From a virus, in the IMG/VR virus record IMGVR_UViG_3300023257_000007, positions 124,001 to 188,000 of that record: a stretch of DNA of 64,000 nt; one strand, 5' to 3'. The notes beneath the pieces were generated by a model that saw only the letters and a list, made by a program, of their open reading frames with translations, had not been told where the DNA came from and searched no databases. Positions 17,145 through 62,687 of the stretch are shown in pieces; position 1 is the first letter of the stretch; every line of letters begins with the position of its first letter. The position numbers and the translations under genes are program-made.

Positions 17145-17165
17145 AAACCAGTTATAAACTGGTTT
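17145..17165 (-). terminator. Terminator after the P-loop kinase gene
   Basis: Stem AAACCAGTT (17145-17153), loop ATA, AACTGGTTT (17157-17165). It has a T run on the minus strand (opposite 17141-17147) and overlaps the stop codon at 17164-17166. Confidence 0.7.
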
Positions 17166-17763
17166 AATTCAATGTATCTGTAAACTTAACAGTGGAAAAC
17201 TTTTTATTAAGTTGATTCTTTATTTTGTTCTTAAATGTATCATCCCATTCACCATCATATTTCAAATCATTAACAACAGATTTTTTAAAATCATTAAATT
17301 GTCTTTGAATAACTTCATAAGGTACATTTGATCTAATTTCACCATTATCAATTTGACTTCTTATTCTATGATTAGATATTTCTACACCAGGTCTAAAAAC
17401 AATAGCTGTTTTCTTAACATCAAGAAACTGTTTAATAGAGCTATTTCTTGTTGTACTATTTGTATTAATAGCATCTAAAACAGCCACACCATATTCTTTT
17501 AATAATACTTTAATTCTAGCATATGCAACTTCCCATGCTTTTTTAGATCTCCACCAATCTCCACTGTTTCCAGCATTTATGTCACCGTATAATTCTAATC
17601 TAATATCATCTGGCGCAATTCGAATATCATCAATTGTTAAGCCGTTCTTATCTAATATTTTTTTAACTTCTGGAAAATCATTTAAAAATACATTATTAAA
17701 ATAAGTTGATTTTCCGGAACCTGAAATTCCAATTGGAAAATATAGAATTGGTTTATTTGCCAT
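17164..17763 (-). CDS. P-loop polynucleotide kinase-like protein
   Basis: 199 residues. Walker A is GISGSGKST at 12-20, with an IRIAPDDIRLELYGD segment and a DAINTNSTTRNSSI string. This matches the D-x-T/N...R pattern after strand 3 in T4 Pnk-type 5' kinases (AAA_33/zeta-type family). The substrate could be a nucleic-acid 5' end or a small molecule. There is no attached 3' phosphatase domain as in T4 Pnk. It could take part in end repair of cut tRNA with an RNA ligase, but no ligase is visible here. It is followed by a terminator and preceded by TATATATAAA on the minus strand. Confidence 0.7.
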   Translation of the reverse strand: MANKPILYFPIGISGSGKSTYFNNVFLNDFPEVKKILDKNGLTIDDIRIAPDDIRLELYGDINAGNSGDWWRSKKAWEVAYARIKVLLKEYGVAVLDAINTNSTTRNSSIKQFLDVKKTAIVFRPGVEISNHRIRSQIDNGEIRSNVPYEVIQRQFNDFKKSVVNDLKYDGEWDDTFKNKIKNQLNKKFSTVKFTDTLN

Positions 17764-18683: not shown

Positions 18684-18697
18684 AATCAGGATTTTCT
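18668..18697. terminator. Bidirectional terminator
   Basis: AGAAAATCCTGATT (18668-18681) and AATCAGGATTTTCT (18684-18697) form a 14-bp symmetric stem. It spans the stop codons of two converging genes, with A/T tails on both sides. Confidence 0.8.
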
Positions 18698-20146
18698 ATT
18701 TTGTAATTCCGTTAATTTAAAATAAAAATCTCGAGCTATTTTCTTTAAGTAATATGTACCCATTCCTTGCATGCCTGTTTTCTCGTTATCTGGATCTGGT
18801 ACTCTTTTACCATTTAAGTAGTTTAAACCACTAACATTTGTAATAAATTTATGACCCCCTGAATTTGATTGAATAATATCCCATGCCGTAACATACATAT
18901 CATTTAATATCTTTTTATCATTTTCACTTAATTTTATAAAAGGAACAGTCATCACAGCATCTAACACATTTTCAGATTGCTGATCTAAACCAACAATTTG
19001 ATCTTTAAATAAAGAAACTAAATCTTTAAATCTAAAACCAAATTCATTTGAAATATCTTTTGGAGCTTTATTTCTTGTACCTTTAGCAGCTCTGACCATA
19101 TCTTGTTCAGATATTCTCTTAATATTTTTAACAGTTATTTTAACGTTTTGTAAATTAGTTTTGAAATTATTTAATACATCTTGTGCAATATCGCCCAAGT
19201 TAATATGTTCAAATTTTGGATCTTTCTTTTTAAAAGGATTTGTTGAAACTTGAACTAATCCCATTGGCCAAGCCATAATAAAAAAATTAGCATCTGGATA
19301 TAATTTAAATGAAGCATATCTATCATATGAACCAGTATCAAACATTCTAGGACCACCATATTGCATCATTATATCATTCTTAACAACTAATTTTTTAAAA
19401 TTTTTAAGATTGTCAAAATATGTATTTGCATGTTTTTCAATTGATTCAGCAGGATCTAAACCTAAATCTTTAGCTAATTTCTTAATTTCTAAAAACATAC
19501 TAACTAAACTAGGTTTTGAATTTTCAACTAAACCTACTAAAAAACCAGGTTTATTTTTATAAGCCAATAATAGTTTATTTACAACAAATCCTAATTTCAT
19601 TCTATTTGATTTAGTTGATATATCTTTATTGGTTTTATAGAAAAATTGAATTACATCAGAAGGAGTTATATCTTGACTTGCATAATCTGCACTATCAACA
19701 GTATCAATCATATTAACATCTTCTGCTGAAAATATATCATTAGGTGAAATTTCACCGGAAATAGTACCAGCATTTGATTTAGCTTTCTTAAAATGTGCAG
19801 ACATAGTTTCTACGCCTATTTGCATATCATGGTGGTCTGTATGAATAACAAATTCTGTTTTACCGTGAGCAAAATCTACTAAAACAGCTAATGTACCGGG
19901 TTGTGGTTTATCTAAATGATATTCCATACCACCATATTGAATAGTATGATATCTTACTGTTTTAATACCATATTGTTTCAAATATTCTCTCATAGCAATA
20001 GCTGATGTAACACCATCTAAATCTACATGAAAATATATTTCAGCTTCATCAAAAGTTTTAGATATTTTTTTAATATCACGTATGCCAGATTCATTTAATT
20101 TCAGAAACTGATTATAACTTTCTAATAAACGCATGAAATTAAACAT
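18686..20146 (-). CDS. DHH-family phosphoesterase with possible head-targeting leader
   Basis: 486 residues. Motif I is HVDLDGVTSA (40-49), motif II-like is LVDFAHG (89-95), and motif III is HTDHHDMQ (102-109), the DHH signature of the RecJ/NrnA/GdpP superfamily. These manganese enzymes cleave phosphodiester bonds in short RNA, cyclic dinucleotides or single-stranded DNA. The remaining 370 residues are not obviously a DHHA1 domain and may hold a substrate-binding part. The N-terminus, MRLLESYNQFLKLNESG after an optional MFNF, resembles the capsid-targeting leader, with L-N-E at residues 17-19. The start at 20146 overlaps the upstream gene by 8 bp; the ATG at 20134 is an alternative. Confidence 0.72.
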   Translation of the reverse strand: MFNFMRLLESYNQFLKLNESGIRDIKKISKTFDEAEIYFHVDLDGVTSAIAMREYLKQYGIKTVRYHTIQYGGMEYHLDKPQPGTLAVLVDFAHGKTEFVIHTDHHDMQIGVETMSAHFKKAKSNAGTISGEISPNDIFSAEDVNMIDTVDSADYASQDITPSDVIQFFYKTNKDISTKSNRMKLGFVVNKLLLAYKNKPGFLVGLVENSKPSLVSMFLEIKKLAKDLGLDPAESIEKHANTYFDNLKNFKKLVVKNDIMMQYGGPRMFDTGSYDRYASFKLYPDANFFIMAWPMGLVQVSTNPFKKKDPKFEHINLGDIAQDVLNNFKTNLQNVKITVKNIKRISEQDMVRAAKGTRNKAPKDISNEFGFRFKDLVSLFKDQIVGLDQQSENVLDAVMTVPFIKLSENDKKILNDMYVTAWDIIQSNSGGHKFITNVSGLNYLNGKRVPDPDNEKTGMQGMGTYYLKKIARDFYFKLTELQNRKS

Positions 20147-22111: not shown

Positions 22112-24064
22112 TTATAAACTATTTTTTGACGAATCTATTGGTGGTGTACCATCTCTAGAAGTTTTATTACTTGGATTAAACACCGCACTCATAGAACTAT
22201 TTGGTATTGAATTATCACCAGTAATTTTATTTTCACCTAGTACCCAATAACCTTTATTCCAAATTCCATTATACCAATTACCAAGATAAAATTTTCCATT
22301 AATAAAAGTTCCATTATACCAATCACCAGACCAAAAATATCCATCATTAAATGTACCACCACTCCATCTACTAAAAAATATATTAGTTTTTGTTGATGAA
22401 CCATTTTTCCAATCAGCATATATTATATCGCTATTTTCTGCTATACCATTTTCCCAAATTGTATTTGTTGTTCCTGTCATGCCTAAAATCGGATCATAAA
22501 TATTCTCTGTTTCAGAATTGAAAAATTTACCATTTTTCCATGTACCATGACTCCATGTTGAATTATTAAACTCGCCTTGATACCAAGTACCAGAACTCCA
22601 TGTAGAATTTATCATTTTTCCATTATACCATGAACCATCTCTCCAACCACCATTATTAAAAGTTCCACCATACCACACACCGTCATACCACGTACCAGTT
22701 TCAAATATTCCATTATTCCAGATTCCATTATTCCATGTAGATCCACTACCTTTAAAAGCACCATTATTAAAAATTCCATCATACCATGTAACATAATTAA
22801 TTATATTACCATTATTAAAAGTTCCATCATACCAGTATATTTTATAATAATATATCAATAATTTTAAATCTCCACTCATATCACCACCATTAAATGTACC
22901 ACCTGACCACATACAATCTATATTATCTGCATTAAAATTGCCATTATTAAAAACACCATTATACCATTGTGAATCTACAAATGTTCCATCATTAAAAGTA
23001 CCACCAGTCCAATTTGATCTATAAAAATACCCATCATTAAAAATACCATTTAACCAAGTTTTTGAACTATTAAAATAACCAAATATCCCATTATTCCAAA
23101 TACCATCATACCAAACACTTGGTCCAAATTTTTGACTTTCTTCACTTAATAAAGAATAATCTTCACCTATATCATATTCCCATGTACCATAACTCCAAAT
23201 ACAATTATTTTCCACCGTACAATTTTTAAAATATCCACCAGTAATTATGTAATCACTTATCACACATTCTTCAAAATATCCACCACTTATAATATGATTA
23301 GAGCCATTAAAAACTCCATTATAATAAATACCAGATTCTATATTAGTTATATAAATATTTGAACTAATTGAATTTTCACAACCAATATAACTATAACCAT
23401 TATTATTATTATTTTTACTTATAGATAAAGATAATATATCATCTTCAGTATTAACTAATGTAGGATACATATAATCATATTTTAATTCAAATGTTGTACC
23501 AGTAGAATTACAAACAAAAAAGATACCTTGATTTACATTAACATCACCAATCAAATCACATTCTTTTATAATAGCTGCATCTATATAACCATCATTTATT
23601 GTGATATTTTCACATTTAACCAAACTAATATAATGATTTGTTAAATTAACATTTGAAGGTAAATCTTCATATTTTTTATTAATAATAATTAGATTTCTAT
23701 TACTATCTACATATATTACTTTATATCCATTATCTTTAACATAAGGAAAATTTAAATCATATCTTCTTTCATAAAATGTATCAATATTACCAGTTGCATC
23801 ATCAAAACTTGAAATATAAACTATATCTCCTATTTTAATATTAGAATCTAACATTGTATAAAACCCAAGATATTCATTATATCTTTCTGGTATGTTTACA
23901 ATCTTAACAGAATTTCTTGTTTCAGGATATTTTGCAAGTTCTCTTTTTCTAACAGGATCAATAGGATCTGATAAATTAACATTAATACCCAATTCTAATG
24001 ATAGACCCTTTATAATTCCATTTGAATTTAATGTGTCAACAGGTATGTTTGTTATTCTAGCCAT
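22112..24064 (-). CDS. Trp/Gly-repeat fibre-like protein
   Basis: 650 residues from the ATG at 24064 (MARITNIPVDTLNSNG). A longer frame uses a TTG at 24124, but a TATATATAAA element at about 24087-24098 lies inside that extension, so I prefer the ATG. Residues 1-280 are a beta-rich head. About residues 285-620 hold some 30 imperfect repeats of the type W-x-x-G-x-[FW]-x-[ND]-G-x-[FW] (for example WYNGVFNNGNF, TWSSGTWYQGEF). This looks like a long beta-helix, as in phage fibres or needle proteins. The DNA of the repeats is also periodic. I infer a receptor-binding or structural fibre role. Confidence 0.6.
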   Translation of the reverse strand: MARITNIPVDTLNSNGIIKGLSLELGINVNLSDPIDPVRKRELAKYPETRNSVKIVNIPERYNEYLGFYTMLDSNIKIGDIVYISSFDDATGNIDTFYERRYDLNFPYVKDNGYKVIYVDSNRNLIIINKKYEDLPSNVNLTNHYISLVKCENITINDGYIDAAIIKECDLIGDVNVNQGIFFVCNSTGTTFELKYDYMYPTLVNTEDDILSLSISKNNNNNGYSYIGCENSISSNIYITNIESGIYYNGVFNGSNHIISGGYFEECVISDYIITGGYFKNCTVENNCIWSYGTWEYDIGEDYSLLSEESQKFGPSVWYDGIWNNGIFGYFNSSKTWLNGIFNDGYFYRSNWTGGTFNDGTFVDSQWYNGVFNNGNFNADNIDCMWSGGTFNGGDMSGDLKLLIYYYKIYWYDGTFNNGNIINYVTWYDGIFNNGAFKGSGSTWNNGIWNNGIFETGTWYDGVWYGGTFNNGGWRDGSWYNGKMINSTWSSGTWYQGEFNNSTWSHGTWKNGKFFNSETENIYDPILGMTGTTNTIWENGIAENSDIIYADWKNGSSTKTNIFFSRWSGGTFNDGYFWSGDWYNGTFINGKFYLGNWYNGIWNKGYWVLGENKITGDNSIPNSSMSAVFNPSNKTSRDGTPPIDSSKNSL

Positions 24065-24387
24065 TAATAATCTTAATTTAGTTTTATATATAAAATATTG
24101 ATTAGTGATAAAAAAATTTTTCAAAAATTTCCTTGAATTCTCTAAGATGTTGATTTTATTGTATTTGAATTTTCAACAAATCCTTTAAATATAATAGTTT
24201 TAGAAATTTTAAAAAAGTGAAAAATTTTTTAAATATATAAATAGTGTAGTATTTAAACAGAATTTAGATTGAAAAGTATTAAAAAAATTAAAAACTTTTA
24301 TTTGAATTCGTTTTATATGATTTAAGATAAATTTTAAAACGCTTTAAAGTTTTTCAGTTGAACTAAACAACATTAAAAATTAGTATT
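24065..24387. promoter_or_regulatory. Intergenic region ahead of gp32
   Basis: About 320 bp between divergent genes. It contains a late-type TATATATAAA element at 24087-24098 (minus strand) and long A/T tracts. A possible plus-strand promoter is TTTG (24301-24304) followed 9 bp later by TATATG (24314-24319). I see no gene longer than 20 codons in it. Confidence 0.4.
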
Positions 24388-25516: not shown

Positions 25517-26491
25517 ATGAAAATATATAAATTTAATTCTTTTATATTTGAAAAAAGTTCTCTAACTTCAATTGGAATACCAAATGAAGTTCTTAAACAA
25601 ATTCAAATAGATTACGAATTACCACATAATATAAAATGGGAAGAACTTACATTTTCAAACACCATCAAATCATCACTAGAAAATGATGACAAAAATCTAT
25701 ATATTGAAATAAATAAAGAAGGCACTAAAGTAAACGTAATAACATCAATAAGAAAAAATAAAAAGAAAATCTACATATTAGACGAATATAAATATAATTT
25801 CGGATGGGAAAAATCAGAAAGAATTGATATAACATTCGCACCAATTGTACAAAAAATGTCATTTAAAAGTATATATTATCACTGTGAATCTAAAAACTTT
25901 AAACTCACATCCAAAAAAGAAAGATCACTTGAAAATATAAATGTCCAATATGAAAATTTTAATACACAATTTAAAAAAGACTTTACTAACAAATTCATAA
26001 GTATAATTAAAAAAGATAAATATAATCTACTAGACAATACTATAAAAGAAAACGGTCTAACAACATTTGATGAATATTTATATGATTTTGAATCACAATG
26101 TTCAGAAGAATTAAAAAGATATTTAACAATTAAAGAACTTATTTCTAGATATGGTAAAGATAAAATATTTAGATCATTTATGTATTTCATTAAAACAAAT
26201 AACTTAAAATTATTTGAATCAAATACTTCATTAAAACAAACAATAAGTTTATTCGTTGACGATTATTGGTATGCAATGGACGAATTAGAAGGAGTATTAC
26301 ATGACTTAGGATATAAAAGAATGAGTGATAGTGGTAAAGATGTTCTTTTTGTAGAAAAAGAAGGCGAAACTAGATTATATTGGTACGGAAAAGCTTTTGA
26401 AATTAAAAATGAACCACATTATAAAATGCCAGAAGACTGGGCAACTTTTGTTAAAGAAATAACACAAAATTTTGAAGATATAAAAATATGA
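25517..26491 (+). CDS. Unrecognised protein with leader-like N-terminus
   Basis: 324 residues from the ATG at 25517 (MKIYKFNSFIFEKSS). A longer frame from GTG 25478 would start inside the terminator hairpin, so I reject it. The N-terminus resembles the capsid-targeting-like leader (F-x-x-F-I-F-E). The middle is rich in Lys and has beta-strand pairs. The C-terminal part (about 250-324) holds DDYWYAMDELEGVLHDLGYK and RLYWYGKAFEIKNEP, perhaps a small domain. A TATATAGG element lies just upstream of the start. Function unknown; possibly packaged. Confidence 0.6.
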   Translation: MKIYKFNSFIFEKSSLTSIGIPNEVLKQIQIDYELPHNIKWEELTFSNTIKSSLENDDKNLYIEINKEGTKVNVITSIRKNKKKIYILDEYKYNFGWEKSERIDITFAPIVQKMSFKSIYYHCESKNFKLTSKKERSLENINVQYENFNTQFKKDFTNKFISIIKKDKYNLLDNTIKENGLTTFDEYLYDFESQCSEELKRYLTIKELISRYGKDKIFRSFMYFIKTNNLKLFESNTSLKQTISLFVDDYWYAMDELEGVLHDLGYKRMSDSGKDVLFVEKEGETRLYWYGKAFEIKNEPHYKMPEDWATFVKEITQNFEDIKI

Positions 26492-29437: not shown

Positions 29438-30091
29438 TTATCTACTTAATAAACCTATTTTAGAATAAACATTTTTCCAATCATCCTCATTGTTTATTAT
29501 ATATTCAGGTTCTCTGGAATCTAAAATAGTTTCAGCATTTTCAATTGTTACATAATCAACGGCTTTTATTTTAATTCCATCATTAATTCTAACTCTATAA
29601 GTTTTAAATGTTTCACTCAAAATTTGTGCTATATATAAAGGAAAAGTACCATCATCAATATACATAACAGCAGAAAGTTTTGCATTTGGCATCTCAACGT
29701 ACAACTTATTCTCTGTATCTATCAAATGATATTTGGATAAGCTTTCTTTAATTCCGTTATGTTTAATAACATCACTATTCTTAACATAATAATAAGAATC
29801 TGTAGAAGTTTCTTTAAAAACTAATGATGCATCAATTTTTTTACAGAATTGATTTAACATTTTTCTTTGAAAATTGCCTTTATCTAATAAATTACTATTA
29901 ATTAATCCACTAAACTTATATTTATCTTCTAATATAACAACAATTTTTCTATTTGCATTATCATAATACAAACAATCTATATCCAACATATAATTAGATC
30001 TAGATAAACTTCTATGTCCTTCAGAAAAGACATTACTTTTACCCCATTTTCTTTTATAATCTTCAAATATGTTTTTAATTCTTTGTATCAT
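29438..30091 (-). CDS. Possible PD-(D/E)XK-type protein
   Basis: 217 residues. Residues 34-58 contain YMLDIDCLYYD (Asp37, Asp39) and IVVILEDKYK (Glu55-x-Lys57). Spaced like this, D...E-x-K on adjacent strands is the core of PD-(D/E)XK nucleases. The surrounding fold cannot be judged by eye, so this is a candidate only. It overlaps the nucleotidyltransferase gene by 17 bp and is co-translated with it, hinting at a shared role in RNA or DNA end processing. Confidence 0.45.
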   Translation of the reverse strand: MIQRIKNIFEDYKRKWGKSNVFSEGHRSLSRSNYMLDIDCLYYDNANRKIVVILEDKYKFSGLINSNLLDKGNFQRKMLNQFCKKIDASLVFKETSTDSYYYVKNSDVIKHNGIKESLSKYHLIDTENKLYVEMPNAKLSAVMYIDDGTFPLYIAQILSETFKTYRVRINDGIKIKAVDYVTIENAETILDSREPEYIINNEDDWKNVYSKIGLLSR

Positions 30092-31382
30092 TACTCATAT
30101 ATTCATTTTTAAATCTTTCGTATTCTATTCTTCTCATTTCTTCACCTAAAGCCTTTCCATGAAATCCCTTTTGCATTAACTCTTGTGAATTTTTTAAAAA
30201 ACCATCACTACAATATTTAATGAAAGCTTCAGTTATATTTGAATATAATCCCTGAGACTTAGTATATAATCTTAATATATTATCATCAATACCAAATCTA
30301 GTCTTATTTTTAGCTAACTGATAAATATTTGTCATCCACATATCACCTGTAGATTCTTCTATTATCTTTTTCTCATAATTAAATAGAAAAATAATATAAT
30401 CAATCAAATTATTTTGCAACTTACAATCAATTAATTTGTTGGTTAAATTCGAATCATCTGAACTTGGAGTCATCAAAATAGGTAAAATTATCCTATTATC
30501 GAAAAGTGAAAAATTCACCCAAGGAACCTCTATTTTAATTCCAGGGAAAATCTCATCAAACATATCAAATTCATCAAGTAATCTTAAATATTTAATAAAC
30601 ATAGACATATCATTTGCATCTCTCGCATGACCTAACATTTTATTCCATTCACCATTTTTAGTGTCAAATATTCTTTCAAATGAAACATCATCTTTCTCAG
30701 ATATTCCATGTAATCTATGATCCATAGTTAATGCATTCTTTACATTTTCACTTATTTTACCATTAGTTCTTGCACAAAATCTAAACAATCTTAATATTCT
30801 CAATCTATCTTCATTAAACCTTTCATAAGGTTCACCAACAGTTTTAATAAGTCCTTTCTTTAAATCTTCAATACCACCAACATAATCAATGATTTTCTTA
30901 CTACCAAGATCATAAAACATTGCATTAATTGTTAAATCTCTTCTTAAAACATCATCTTGTATTGTAACATTTGAACCAATTTCTACTTTTTGATCATCAC
31001 CTTTAACATCTCTACCTTTAGCAATATCTTTTCTATAGGTTGCTAATTCATGACCTAATGGTTCTAAATCTGTATAAATTCTTAATACTCCAAAATTTTG
31101 TCCTTGCTCTTCTTCAGAAACATAACCACCATTCCAATCTTCTAATATCTCTTTAGATTCATCTGGCATTGCATCTGTAACTAAATCAAAATCTTTAGGT
31201 TTTTTTCCTTGTAAATAATCTCTAGGAGCGCCACCTACAACATATAATTCCTTACCATACTTTTTAAATCTTTCATATATTTCTACAATATCTTCGGGTA
31301 TGAACATATCTTTAGCTTTAACAGTTTTCTTTTGCATTTTATTTTCATTTAAAAATTCAGAATATTTATACAATTTATTCAT
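30075..31382 (-). CDS. CCA-adding enzyme / poly(A) polymerase family nucleotidyltransferase with head-targeting-like leader
   Basis: 435 residues. The catalytic block YVVGGAPRDYLQGKKPKDFD (47-66) has GG...RD and the D-x-D metal ligands (Asp64, Asp66). RRDLTINAMFYD and the YERFNEDRLRILRLFRFCAR block follow in the standard order of class II tRNA nucleotidyltransferases. Such enzymes rebuild or repair the CCA end of tRNA, or add A tails. The start MNKLYKYSEFLNENKMQKK resembles the capsid-targeting leader, with L-N-E at 11-13. A late-type TTTAATATATATT element lies 4 bases upstream. It may therefore be packaged and injected to repair tRNA early in infection. Confidence 0.8.
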   Translation of the reverse strand: MNKLYKYSEFLNENKMQKKTVKAKDMFIPEDIVEIYERFKKYGKELYVVGGAPRDYLQGKKPKDFDLVTDAMPDESKEILEDWNGGYVSEEEQGQNFGVLRIYTDLEPLGHELATYRKDIAKGRDVKGDDQKVEIGSNVTIQDDVLRRDLTINAMFYDLGSKKIIDYVGGIEDLKKGLIKTVGEPYERFNEDRLRILRLFRFCARTNGKISENVKNALTMDHRLHGISEKDDVSFERIFDTKNGEWNKMLGHARDANDMSMFIKYLRLLDEFDMFDEIFPGIKIEVPWVNFSLFDNRIILPILMTPSSDDSNLTNKLIDCKLQNNLIDYIIFLFNYEKKIIEESTGDMWMTNIYQLAKNKTRFGIDDNILRLYTKSQGLYSNITEAFIKYCSDGFLKNSQELMQKGFHGKALGEEMRRIEYERFKNEYMSNDTKN

Positions 31383-31385
31383 GAC

Positions 31386-31398
31386 AATATATATTAAA
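31386..31398 (-). promoter_or_regulatory. Late-promoter-like element
   Basis: The minus strand reads TTTAATATATATT immediately before the start of the nucleotidyltransferase gene at 31382, so the leader would be very short. Confidence 0.35.
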
Positions 31399-31402
31399 TT
31401 AA

Positions 31403-31431
31403 AAAACCATCGTTTAAATTACGATGGTTTT
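31403..31431 (-). terminator. Terminator after phoH-like gene
   Basis: AAAACCATCGT (31403-31413), loop TTAAATT, ACGATGGTTTT (31421-31431). 11-bp stem with A/T tails on both sides. Confidence 0.75.
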
Positions 31432-31449
31432 ATTATAAGACATTATTTA

Positions 31450-32196
31450 TTAATCTTTTAAATCATATCTTTGTAAAATTCCTGCAATTATAGGATTTCT
31501 AACAATATCTTCAGGTCTATCTACTATAAATTCATAAACTCCAACACCTTTAGCACCTTTCATTAAAGTGAATGCGTCATATAAACCACTACTATTCTTT
31601 TTATTATACCTATCAGTTTGTTCTAAATCACCACTAATAATAAATTTACTATTAAAACCAATTCTAGTTAAAACAGTTTTCATTTGTTTTGGTGTACAAT
31701 TCTGTGCTTCTTCAAATATTAAAATACTATTATCTATATTCCAACCTCTTAAATAAGCTAAAGCTAAAGGTTTAATTATTTCAGATTCAACTAATTTTTT
31801 TCTATTTTCAATGCCTATTATTTTGTCAATAAGTTTATAAGTTGAATATAAATAAGGTTCTAATTTATCTTCTAAATCACCAGGTAAATAACCTAATTTC
31901 TCTTCTGATTCAACAGCTGGTGTAATAATATAAATATTATGATAATTGTTAGAAGAATCAGCTAATAATTGTAATGCCTTAATTATACTAATATAACTTT
32001 TTCCTACACCGGCAGGTCCTATACAAATTGATATTTGATTACTATCAATTATTTTTATAAAATCTTTTTGTTTTTCATTTTTACATCTAATCTTAACTTT
32101 TTTGCCATATAATATATCTGCAAGTTGTTTATTATTTAACAACTCTTTATCTTTACTTTTTACATTTAATTTTGTTGTTATTATTGGTTTTCTCAT
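31450..32196 (-). CDS. phoH: PhoH-like ATPase
   Basis: 248 residues. Walker A is GPAGVGKS at 60-67 and Walker B is LIFEEAQN at 158-165. The QMKTVLTRIG and FIISGDLEQTDR segments are the standard PhoH signatures. PhoH proteins are common in marine and Bacteroidota phages; their task is poorly defined, with links to RNA metabolism. It lies near an RNase H-like, a nucleotidyltransferase and an S1 protein, which fits an RNA role. It has its own terminator downstream. Confidence 0.88.
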   Translation of the reverse strand: MRKPIITTKLNVKSKDKELLNNKQLADILYGKKVKIRCKNEKQKDFIKIIDSNQISICIGPAGVGKSYISIIKALQLLADSSNNYHNIYIITPAVESEEKLGYLPGDLEDKLEPYLYSTYKLIDKIIGIENRKKLVESEIIKPLALAYLRGWNIDNSILIFEEAQNCTPKQMKTVLTRIGFNSKFIISGDLEQTDRYNKKNSSGLYDAFTLMKGAKGVGVYEFIVDRPEDIVRNPIIAGILQRYDLKD

Positions 32197-35036: not shown

Positions 35037-35333
35037 TTAATCATCAAATTGTGTGTACTCATTAGGTTGATTCAATAAACCTAAACTTTTGTAAATACAC
35101 ACTTTATTATTATCAATATAATATTTATCATAAGACGTAAAATTACATAAACTTATAAAAGATTCAAACCAAACCTCTTTTCCTGTAATAATATCATTTA
35201 ATTCAATTGTTATCATCTGATTTTCTTCAATTAAATTAATATCAATGTCAAGATCTTCAAAAAAATTATATAAATTTGATTTCAATGAAACATACTGTGT
35301 TTCATTTATAAATTGATTAAATTTTGTTTTCAT
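35037..35333 (-). CDS. Small protein with clear capsid-targeting-like leader
   Basis: 98 residues starting MKTKFNQFINETQY. This is very close to the MKTYQEFIxEA start of T4 internal proteins, with I-N-E at residues 9-11. The rest is a compact alpha/beta domain with acidic patches. The three genes 35037, 35333 and 36025 are packed with 1-bp overlaps. I take it as an internal head protein candidate. Confidence 0.65.
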   Translation of the reverse strand: MKTKFNQFINETQYVSLKSNLYNFFEDLDIDINLIEENQMITIELNDIITGKEVWFESFISLCNFTSYDKYYIDNNKVCIYKSLGLLNQPNEYTQFDD

Positions 35334-51289: not shown

Positions 51290-52045
51290 TTATAAATGCG
51301 GATCAAAATTAAAAAAAGTTATCTGTTCTTCTATTATTCTAAAAAAGAATTTTACTTCATTATTTTCTTTGTCAACATTTGTATATGGTGTAACTTTTTC
51401 AATCCAAGATTTATCTTGTGCAAAATGTATTAACGATTGGTTTAAAAGTGTTTCATCTTTGTGATCTTCTTTAAATAAATCTAAAGACATAGTTTTACTA
51501 ATTCTTAATTCATCTAATATTTTAACTTCAGATTTTACATTAGACCACCAATCCACAAAATCTTTTTTAACTTGATGTAATAAATTTAAATTCTTAAGAT
51601 TAGAATCTTTTAATCTCAACTTAATTGATTTAACACATTGGTGTCTTGGAAAATCATACCTTAAAAATCTATCATTAATTTTAAATTTCCCTATTTTATA
51701 GACTAGATTTTTTATACTATTATAGAATCCATATTCTAAAATTTTATTCTTTATACCTATAAAAAATGATAATTTATCGTCTTTAATACTTCTTAATGTC
51801 AAAAATGCAGTTTCTAAACTTTTCTTCATTTCTAATTCACCAAGTAATTCATTAATCTTCGTTATTCTATCAGTTGAAAAAAAATAGTAAAAACTACCAG
51901 TATTTAAATAGTTTTGGAAAGCAAAATCATTACCATGTTTATTAACCAAATCAAAAAAAATTCTAAATCCTTCTTTACCAGCTAACAATGGTTCTATTTG
52001 TATTTGTTCATTTATAAATTGTATATATGTATTAATAACTTTCAT
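51290..52045 (-). CDS. Protein with clear capsid-targeting-like leader
   Basis: 251 residues starting MKVINTYIQFINEQIQ. I-N-E at residues 11-13 is placed like the [LI]-x-E prohead protease site of T4 internal proteins. The rest is helical and rich in Lys and Phe, without a known motif (RIFFDLVNKHGNDFAFQNYL near the start). It overlaps the next upstream gene by 4 bp (ATGA on the minus strand). It is probably an internal head protein. Confidence 0.65.
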   Translation of the reverse strand: MKVINTYIQFINEQIQIEPLLAGKEGFRIFFDLVNKHGNDFAFQNYLNTGSFYYFFSTDRITKINELLGELEMKKSLETAFLTLRSIKDDKLSFFIGIKNKILEYGFYNSIKNLVYKIGKFKINDRFLRYDFPRHQCVKSIKLRLKDSNLKNLNLLHQVKKDFVDWWSNVKSEVKILDELRISKTMSLDLFKEDHKDETLLNQSLIHFAQDKSWIEKVTPYTNVDKENNEVKFFFRIIEEQITFFNFDPHL

Positions 52046-61826: not shown

Positions 61827-62386
61827 TAATTATTGGTATTAGTGGAAAAATTGGTAGTGGTAAAGATACTGTCACCAATTCAATTATTAAAAACTTCAAA
61901 GAATACAAATTTAAAAATAAAAAATTTGCACATTATGTTAAAAAAATCTGTGCACTTCTCACAGGTATAAATCTTAAAGTGCTCACTAATAGACAAACAA
62001 AAGAAAAATATCTAGAAGATTGGGGAATGACAGTTGGTAGGATGTTTCAATTAATAGGAACAGAATCAATTAGAAATAATTTACACCCTGATGCCTGGAT
62101 TTTAACACTAGTTGCCAACAGCAAAGGACAAAATGTTATTATATCAGATGTAAGATTTAAAAATGAAGCAAATTACATAAAAAATAATGGTGGTATTCTA
62201 ATAAGATTGGAAGGCGATCCAAAAGAAATAAGAGGAAAAGATGGTAGAGATTTAAATCATATATCAGAAACAGATTTAGACGATTATGAAGATTTTGACA
62301 TAATATGGAACAACAAACCACCCATCGAAAATCTCAAAAACTTAATGAAAATAATAAAAGATAAGATAAATGAAAAATATAACTAA
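61823..62386 (+). CDS. Deoxynucleoside monophosphate kinase, T4 gp1-like
   Basis: 187 residues. Walker A is GKIGSGKDT (8-16). DWGMTVGRMFQLIGTESIRN and VIISDVRFKNEANYI are the conserved dNMP kinase segments. The enzyme makes dNDPs for phage DNA synthesis and works together with the class II reductase at 12711. It is close in size to T4 gp1 (241). It is in one unit with the NADAR gene (4-bp overlap) and the next two small genes. Confidence 0.8.
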   Translation: MIIIGISGKIGSGKDTVTNSIIKNFKEYKFKNKKFAHYVKKICALLTGINLKVLTNRQTKEKYLEDWGMTVGRMFQLIGTESIRNNLHPDAWILTLVANSKGQNVIISDVRFKNEANYIKNNGGILIRLEGDPKEIRGKDGRDLNHISETDLDDYEDFDIIWNNKPPIENLKNLMKIIKDKINEKYN

Positions 62387-62687
62387 AGTTTATGAAATAA
62401 AAGACTCTAAAATTGATATAACAATCAATTATGGTTTAGATAAAGAACAAATATTAAATCACCCAATATCTTTTGATGAAAAAAATCCACATATATTATA
62501 TGTATTTCTTTCAAGTAAAGAAATGGAAAAACATACAGATTGGTTATGGGAAAATAAAGAAAATAATCCTTTCGTAGTTGTTATGTTAACACAATACGAA
62601 GAAAAAGATTTCGATGAAATAGAATCAAGCATAGATTTATTATATACTTCTGTAAAAGAAAAATTTGAAAATAAGAATGACAATTAG
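62370..62687 (+). CDS. Unrecognised small protein
   Basis: 105 residues starting MKNITKVYEIKDSKIDIT. Acidic, alpha/beta, with DEKNPHILYVFLSSKEMEK. It overlaps the dNMP kinase gene by 17 bp and the next gene by 11 bp, so the genes are co-translated. No leader of the common type and no motif seen. Confidence 0.55.
   Translation: MKNITKVYEIKDSKIDITINYGLDKEQILNHPISFDEKNPHILYVFLSSKEMEKHTDWLWENKENNPFVVVMLTQYEEKDFDEIESSIDLLYTSVKEKFENKNDN

Follow-up and report, generated by a model that had tools for sequence, protein, structure and literature searches.

A huge-phage tRNA nucleotidyltransferase carries a capsid-targeting-like leader and is possibly packaged in the phage head

A phage-encoded class II tRNA nucleotidyltransferase, predicted to be CCA-adding, starts with 13 residues that resemble the repeats of a prohead scaffold protein. 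Because the enzyme begins with a tag matching the phage's own head scaffold, it probably travels inside the particle and reaches the next cell with it. Based on homology, motif and context, we put the probability that it is packaged in the head at roughly two in three. The stretch of DNA analysed (the window) is 64,000 nucleotides long and corresponds to positions 124,001-188,000 of a virus record of 348,222 bases (IMGVR_UViG_3300023257_000007). The nearest CCA proteins are found in the uncultured huge phages LR745206 (635 kb) and LR756502 (642 kb) and in IMG/VR contigs reaching 597 kb, and a CCA enzyme match is present in 482 of 50,697 phage records. CCA enzymes are already known from huge phages and are ordinary there; what is unusual about this one is its first 13 residues.

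Results

The CCA gene and its neighborhood

The CCA gene is an ORF of 435 residues with an ATG start (30075-31382, minus strand). The protein matches PolyA_pol of Pfam (1.1e-29), with the catalytic head domain at residues 46-179 (30846-31247, minus), as well as PHROG 2244, tRNA nucleotidyltransferase (3.3e-45). Motif A contains GGAPRD (residues 50-55) and DFD (64-66), and motif B reads RRDLTINAM (147-155). Among the aligned phage relatives, the residues G50, G51, R54, D55, D64 and D66 of motif A, R147, R148, D149, T151, N153 and A154 of motif B, D166, G170 and D173 of motif C, and E191, D192 and R195 of motif D (ED..R, 191-195) are invariant. The full class II enzyme assigned here by an earlier, sequence-only reading is borne out by the ORF, the Pfam and PHROG matches and every catalytic motif, and we regard its predicted class membership as solid.

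Upstream of the CCA gene lies a PhoH-like ATPase gene (31450-32196, minus) without a late-type element. Downstream is a 217-residue ORF (29438-30091, minus) that shares 17 bases with the end of the CCA gene, and no family was found for it in Pfam, PHROG and a further domain search. An Rfam scan of the window gave no match. The ORFs of the window read normally with table 11, and one of them (22112-24124, minus) encodes a long protein built of WYNGTFNNG-type repeats with a MORN-like look. The PNK-like kinase gene reported earlier at 17164 is present as a P-loop (AAA_33) protein (17164-17763, minus), but the connection drawn between it and the CCA enzyme is not supported, as the kinase gene lacks both the leader and the late-type element, and a packaged PNK-CCA pair was rejected for the same reason. 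Leader and late-type element were also not found at the RNA ligase gene (PF09414, record positions 234205-235188) or at a possible second ligase gene (record positions 104846-105499), which has no Pfam match.

The N-terminal leader

Residues 1-13 of the CCA protein are MNKLYKYSEFLNE (31344-31382, minus), a capsid-targeting-like leader with a predicted cut after E13, between LNE and N. In the capsid-targeting sequence (CTS) of T4, residues 4 and 7 target the protein and residues 8 and 10 direct its processing (PMC9026906). T4 IPII and IPIII start with MKTYQEFIAE, and Y7-S-E-F10-L11-N-E13 of the CCA leader aligns with Y4-Q-E-F7-I8-A-E10 of T4, with the same aromatic/aliphatic-x-Glu spacing. A leader with an L-N-E site had been claimed before, and MNKLYKYSEFLNENK is literally present; moreover, the pattern [YF]xxF[LI]xE occurs above chance near the N-termini of this phage's proteins, 18 times against 0.56 expected from internal density.

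Leaders of the same type are found on unrelated genes of the window, namely MKTKFNQFINE (35037-35333, minus), MKVINTYIQFINE (51290-52045, minus) and MKIYKFNSFIFE (25517-26491, plus), the last of which has a late-type element 5 nt before its ATG. With a looser pattern, 70 proteins have leader-like N-termini, many of which are of the MKYLKTYNE type and miss the second aromatic residue. This loose pattern, the post hoc choice of the leader motif and the by-eye group counts given below are the weakest of our statistics, and proteins bearing leader-like N-termini may not all be packaged. The leader codons vary synonymously, so the peptide is the conserved thing, and an origin of the leader at the DNA level was rejected. 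Two further starts were observed: a DHH-family protein of the window (18686-20146, minus) has the in-frame leader-like start MRLLESYNQFLKLNESG, and an AAA ATPase of PHROG 1297 (L031:8514-10028, minus) has the leader MKKLVNYKNFLNE, while a second PHROG 1297 protein (L023:800-2083) has none.

Relation of the leader to the prohead scaffold repeat

The sister contig IMGVR_UViG_3300022868_000009 encodes the same CCA protein and contains a head module. In the sister contig and three relatives, a protease-scaffold gene lies between a T4-type portal gene and a Gp23 capsid gene (Portal_T4 3.8e-67; Gp23 6.4e-27; S77 weak, under the Pfam cut-off). Homologues of the sister's protease-scaffold are annotated as prohead core scaffolding protein and protease. 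The motif occurs 10-13 times in these protease-scaffold proteins of 680-811 residues, and about ten of its occurrences are arranged as tandem 14-residue repeats such as YSEYIAENLDKNIA. We built a profile from the scaffold repeats of the three more distant relatives only, and among the 99,884 seven-residue positions of the phage's proteome the CCA leader ranked second. Six of the top 10 positions were N-terminal (0.7 expected), and none of 300 column-shuffled profiles got there. The capsid proteins of the head modules start with YAEFHSINEN or YAEMHQMNEN, whose INEN and MNEN resemble FLNEN of the CCA leader.

Pfam gave no S77 or Gp23 match in the window's own record, and the sister's capsid protein matched only a short part of the record and partially. 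The full capsid gene and the protease were not found there, and the record may be a fragment. A single-sequence search with T4 gp20, gp21, gp22 and gp23 gave no match; gp17 and gp18 alone matched. Separately, the minus strand of L020 (record positions 62113-62649 and 63736-64365) encodes a 178-residue protein resembling the start of Gp23 and, near it, a 209-residue protein with two scaffold repeats (YSEYIADQLNRNINYCEYIAF). Both are reduced copies of head genes lying outside the head module.

The late-type element upstream of the CCA gene

The late-type promoter-like element AATATATA (31388-31395, minus; fuller form TTTAATATATA, 31388-31398, minus) ends 5 nt before the ATG of the CCA gene. Between the phoH gene and the CCA gene there is a terminator-like hairpin followed by a T run (31403-31431, minus; -12.9 kcal/mol, z -4.8), and the CCA gene is therefore likely to have its own promoter. 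The claim of a late-type element ahead of the gene agrees with the positioning of the octamer throughout this genome, where AATATATA (for example at record positions 155395, 206670 and 216589) forms two clusters before start codons, at 4-9 nt and 18-27 nt.

Of 15 tail- or virion-type genes, 8 fall in the 18-27 nt class, as against 1 of 23 genes for replication, RNA and metabolism (p 0.0009). The element is also located 19-22 nt upstream of the capsid and scaffold genes of the sister contig and of the portal genes in two relatives. The 4-9 nt class is rich in leader genes (13 of 28 genes, compared with 56 of the remaining 490; Fisher p 1e-5), and the 4-5 nt spacing is repeated before the CCA gene in three homologous loci (L055, L057 and L058). 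If the distance from element to transcription start is as in T4 late promoters, the near class would produce near-leaderless mRNAs, and the CCA mRNA would start at or near its AUG. These positions suggest that the CCA gene may be expressed late, judging from gene class, as the element stands before many structural genes and hardly any for replication or RNA metabolism.

Leaders and RNA-repair partners of CCA homologues

A second scan collected 80 CCA loci, or 65 once identical N-termini were removed. Counted by eye, about 40 of the 65 homologues have a short leader before the conserved core, about 11 have none, and those left over are longer fusions or ambiguous cases. Among the orthologues, the leaders form the groups KKYxxFLES, LKTFxEFxxxxEA and MKxxIKQILREG. 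At 19 of 37 leader loci, the N-terminus of an unrelated neighboring gene resembles the CCA leader more closely than do internal segments (p<0.05 each), and in leader matching the own locus outscores a median of 86% of foreign loci. In a group B phage, the small protein in the gp67 position, whose gene lies between those for portal and protease, starts with MKIKTFNQFITEA, like the CCA leaders of group B. The CCA gene directly adjoins the gp21 protease gene in seven loci (about five distinct), all of one clade.

Several homologues count against packaging. The CCA enzyme of L005 (36% identical) and that of L102, which lies beside gp21, have no leader, and the huge-phage relatives L011 and L012 have FLES, not FLNE. 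L013-L016, which are cultured and Lak phages, also encode CCA enzymes without such a leader.

A 2H phosphoesterase gene adjoins the CCA gene in ten relatives (L005, L011, L012, L055, L056, L063, L081, L084, L090 and L092); three of these neighbors were tested and match 2H-SAK, and the remainder were identified by tblastn. More generally, 2H-SAK or tRNA_lig_CPD domains are found beside or fused to CCA enzymes in relatives, and the CCA enzymes of the gp21-adjacent group have a 2H-type domain fused at their C-terminus. In phage RNA repair, enzymes of the 2H and HD kinds have been named as partners that heal ends, and the 2H partners in relatives fit a predicted role in tRNA-end repair. With tblastn, no 2H phosphoesterase was found near the window's CCA gene or elsewhere in the record, and the 2H partner in the relatives seen carries no leader.

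Fusions of CCA enzyme and C-terminal 2H-type domain, back to back with a prohead protease gene, were observed in L161 (677-3053), L101, L104 and L130. A marine contig (L003:5704-10230) encodes a 1508-residue protein consisting of CCA nucleotidyltransferase, HD and CTP_transf_like (cytidylyltransferase-like) domains, in which a ligase-like KLDG/EGIVFK segment and LNE/LGE-like linkers can be seen by eye, and a kinase near it starts with MIKLMDLLNEG.

Alternative explanations for the leader and the enzyme

The simplest rival explanation is an ordinary maturation enzyme that adds CCA to the phage's own tRNAs in the infected cell, with an N-terminal extension that has no targeting role. ARAGORN detected about 25 tRNA genes in the record, about 22 of which have no encoded CCA, and the phage would therefore have an ordinary reason to own a CCA enzyme; published annotations likewise assign tRNA maturation or repair (PMC5852040 and PMC7344957). 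(Tangentially, tRNA-like genes with a CTA anticodon, possible amber suppressors, were observed at L018:7139-7213 and L019:15154-15226.) The leaderless enzymes of L005 and of the cultured and Lak phages also speak for maturation. On the other hand, maturation explains neither the second-best match of the leader to the scaffold repeat within the proteome nor the swapping of the leader with the phage group, and it leaves unexplained the gp21 adjacency in one clade and the late-type element at the CCA gene, as the tRNA clusters have no such element nearby. We consider maturation with a functionless extension unlikely as the whole explanation, while maturation as such is possible and compatible with packaging, because one enzyme could do both.

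A poly(A) polymerase acting in RNA turnover, instead of a CCA-adding enzyme, seems improbable to us. The top NCBIfam score belongs to PcnB (138 bits, vs 123 for CCA families), and E. coli PAP heads both the PDB sequence list and the PDB fold list, but every one of these NCBIfam scores is far under its cut-off. The PcnB matches are limited to residues 30-283, whereas the CCA family PRK13299 (score below its curated cut-off) covers residues 34-420 and the Thermotoga CCA enzyme 3h37 matches residues 32-424. The query also reads GQNFGVLRI (EEQGQNFGVLRI) where E. coli PAP has GRRFRLAHV, a region after motif A that we take to be a PAP signature, reportedly from Martin and Keller, and that the query does not fit. 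The AlphaFold2 model (mean pLDDT 69, C-terminal part ~40-60) has fold matches to a mixture of CCA, A-adding and PAP enzymes, and it is weak beyond the head domain. Because of the near full-length CCA-enzyme matches and the missing E. coli PAP segment, we favor a CCA-type over a poly(A)-type activity as the prediction from the sequence.

Alternatively, the leader could be linked to the near-leaderless promoter or translation start, with an element 4-9 nt before the ATG demanding certain first codons. The enrichment of leader genes in this promoter class is what such a link would give, but 44 leader genes lack such an element, the codons vary while the peptide is conserved, and the peptide motif is also repeated within the scaffold protein, far from start codons, which makes this explanation quite improbable. 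Least probable of all is that the leader addresses another phage-made structure, such as a compartment or membrane-bound assembly: about 45 genes start with M[KRN]x[LI]xx[YF], nearly all without known function, but the strict leader has its best external matches in the prohead scaffold repeat and in the core protein at the gp67 position.

Discussion

Homology, motif and context make capsid targeting the best-supported interpretation of the leader. On balance, we favor a late, prohead-directed CCA enzyme that would be cut between LNE and N and would repair tRNA ends early in the next infection. In this proposed mechanism, the phage would make the enzyme late and send it into its own prohead, where the 13-residue leader, copying the scaffold repeat pattern [YF]xx[FY][IL]xE, would dock in the core of the prohead in the manner of T4 internal-protein leaders. 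The leader would then be cut by the gp21-type protease that forms one protein with the scaffold, the mature enzyme would stay in the head with the DNA, and both would enter the cell together at infection. There, before the late genes are switched on, the delivered enzyme may restore the CCA ends of tRNAs shortened or cut by host defence, as well as those of the tRNAs that the phage itself encodes. The sequence-only reading had already proposed a late, head-packaged CCA enzyme; comparison strengthens it through the match between leader and scaffold repeat, the element before structural genes, the clade-specific leaders shared with neighbors, the gp21 adjacency in one clade and the 2H partners, and weakens it in that the protease was found only outside the own record, namely in the sister contig and in relatives.

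The closest known system is that of T4 IPI, IPII and IPIII, whose CTS is a short N-terminal leader with the aromatic-aromatic-aliphatic-x-Glu spacing of the CCA leader. As in T4, there are a gp21-type protease and a Gp23 capsid protein (in the sister contig and relatives) and a late-type element. The cargo differs, being a tRNA nucleotidyltransferase here and anti-restriction or unknown proteins in T4, where Alt is an ADP-ribosyltransferase. Unlike T4 gp22, the scaffold here forms one protein with the protease and has about ten tandem CTS-like copies. P1 DarB (PMC9024508) likewise has an N-terminal signal that directs it into the head, but its function is anti-restriction.

The phage enzyme has all head-domain motifs in common with the class II CCA-adding enzymes of Thermotoga maritima (3h37), Geobacillus (1miv) and human (TRNT1), with an almost full-length sequence match to 3h37; identity is low, and the phage enzyme has an additional leader and a poorly modelled C-terminal part. 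Earlier papers place the phage CCA enzyme among RNA repair and translation genes. The excerpts of Iyer et al. 2021 (PMC7824862) and Al-Shayeb et al. 2020 (PMC7162821) that we consulted cover CCA enzymes of jumbo and huge phages, which are of the same family, are likewise proposed to repair tRNAs or support translation, and often occur with RNA ligases and tRNAs; a leader or packaging of the enzyme is not described in these excerpts. The Erwinia, Aeromonas, Agrobacterium and Lak phage CCA enzymes examined have no leader of this kind, and the excerpts of the literature searched contain no report of the CCA enzyme in virions.

Taken jointly, these observations tentatively suggest, at somewhat less than even odds, a head-loading address code of huge T4-like phages, with the CCA repair enzyme as a recurrent cargo and the leader swapped per group. 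Proteins whose N-termini imitate the repeat of the scaffold-protease would be taken up into the head and set free by the same protease, and dozens of proteins per genome may bear the address. Several distinct groups of phages would carry the CCA transferase as cargo, accompanied in relatives by 2H or HD healing domains, and the transferase's leader would have been replaced to suit each group's own head.

If the enzyme is indeed packaged, the particle would bring a ready-made tRNA-end repair enzyme, active before any phage gene is read. Defences directed against tRNAs or their CCA ends, such as toxSAS enzymes (PMC11559606), would thus be countered directly. As the leader and a repeat of the scaffold protein match, head-travelling proteins would then be predictable from sequence alone, a prediction that would apply to hundreds of uncharacterised huge-phage proteins. 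The contents of giant phage heads, a long-standing question, would thereby become directly testable.
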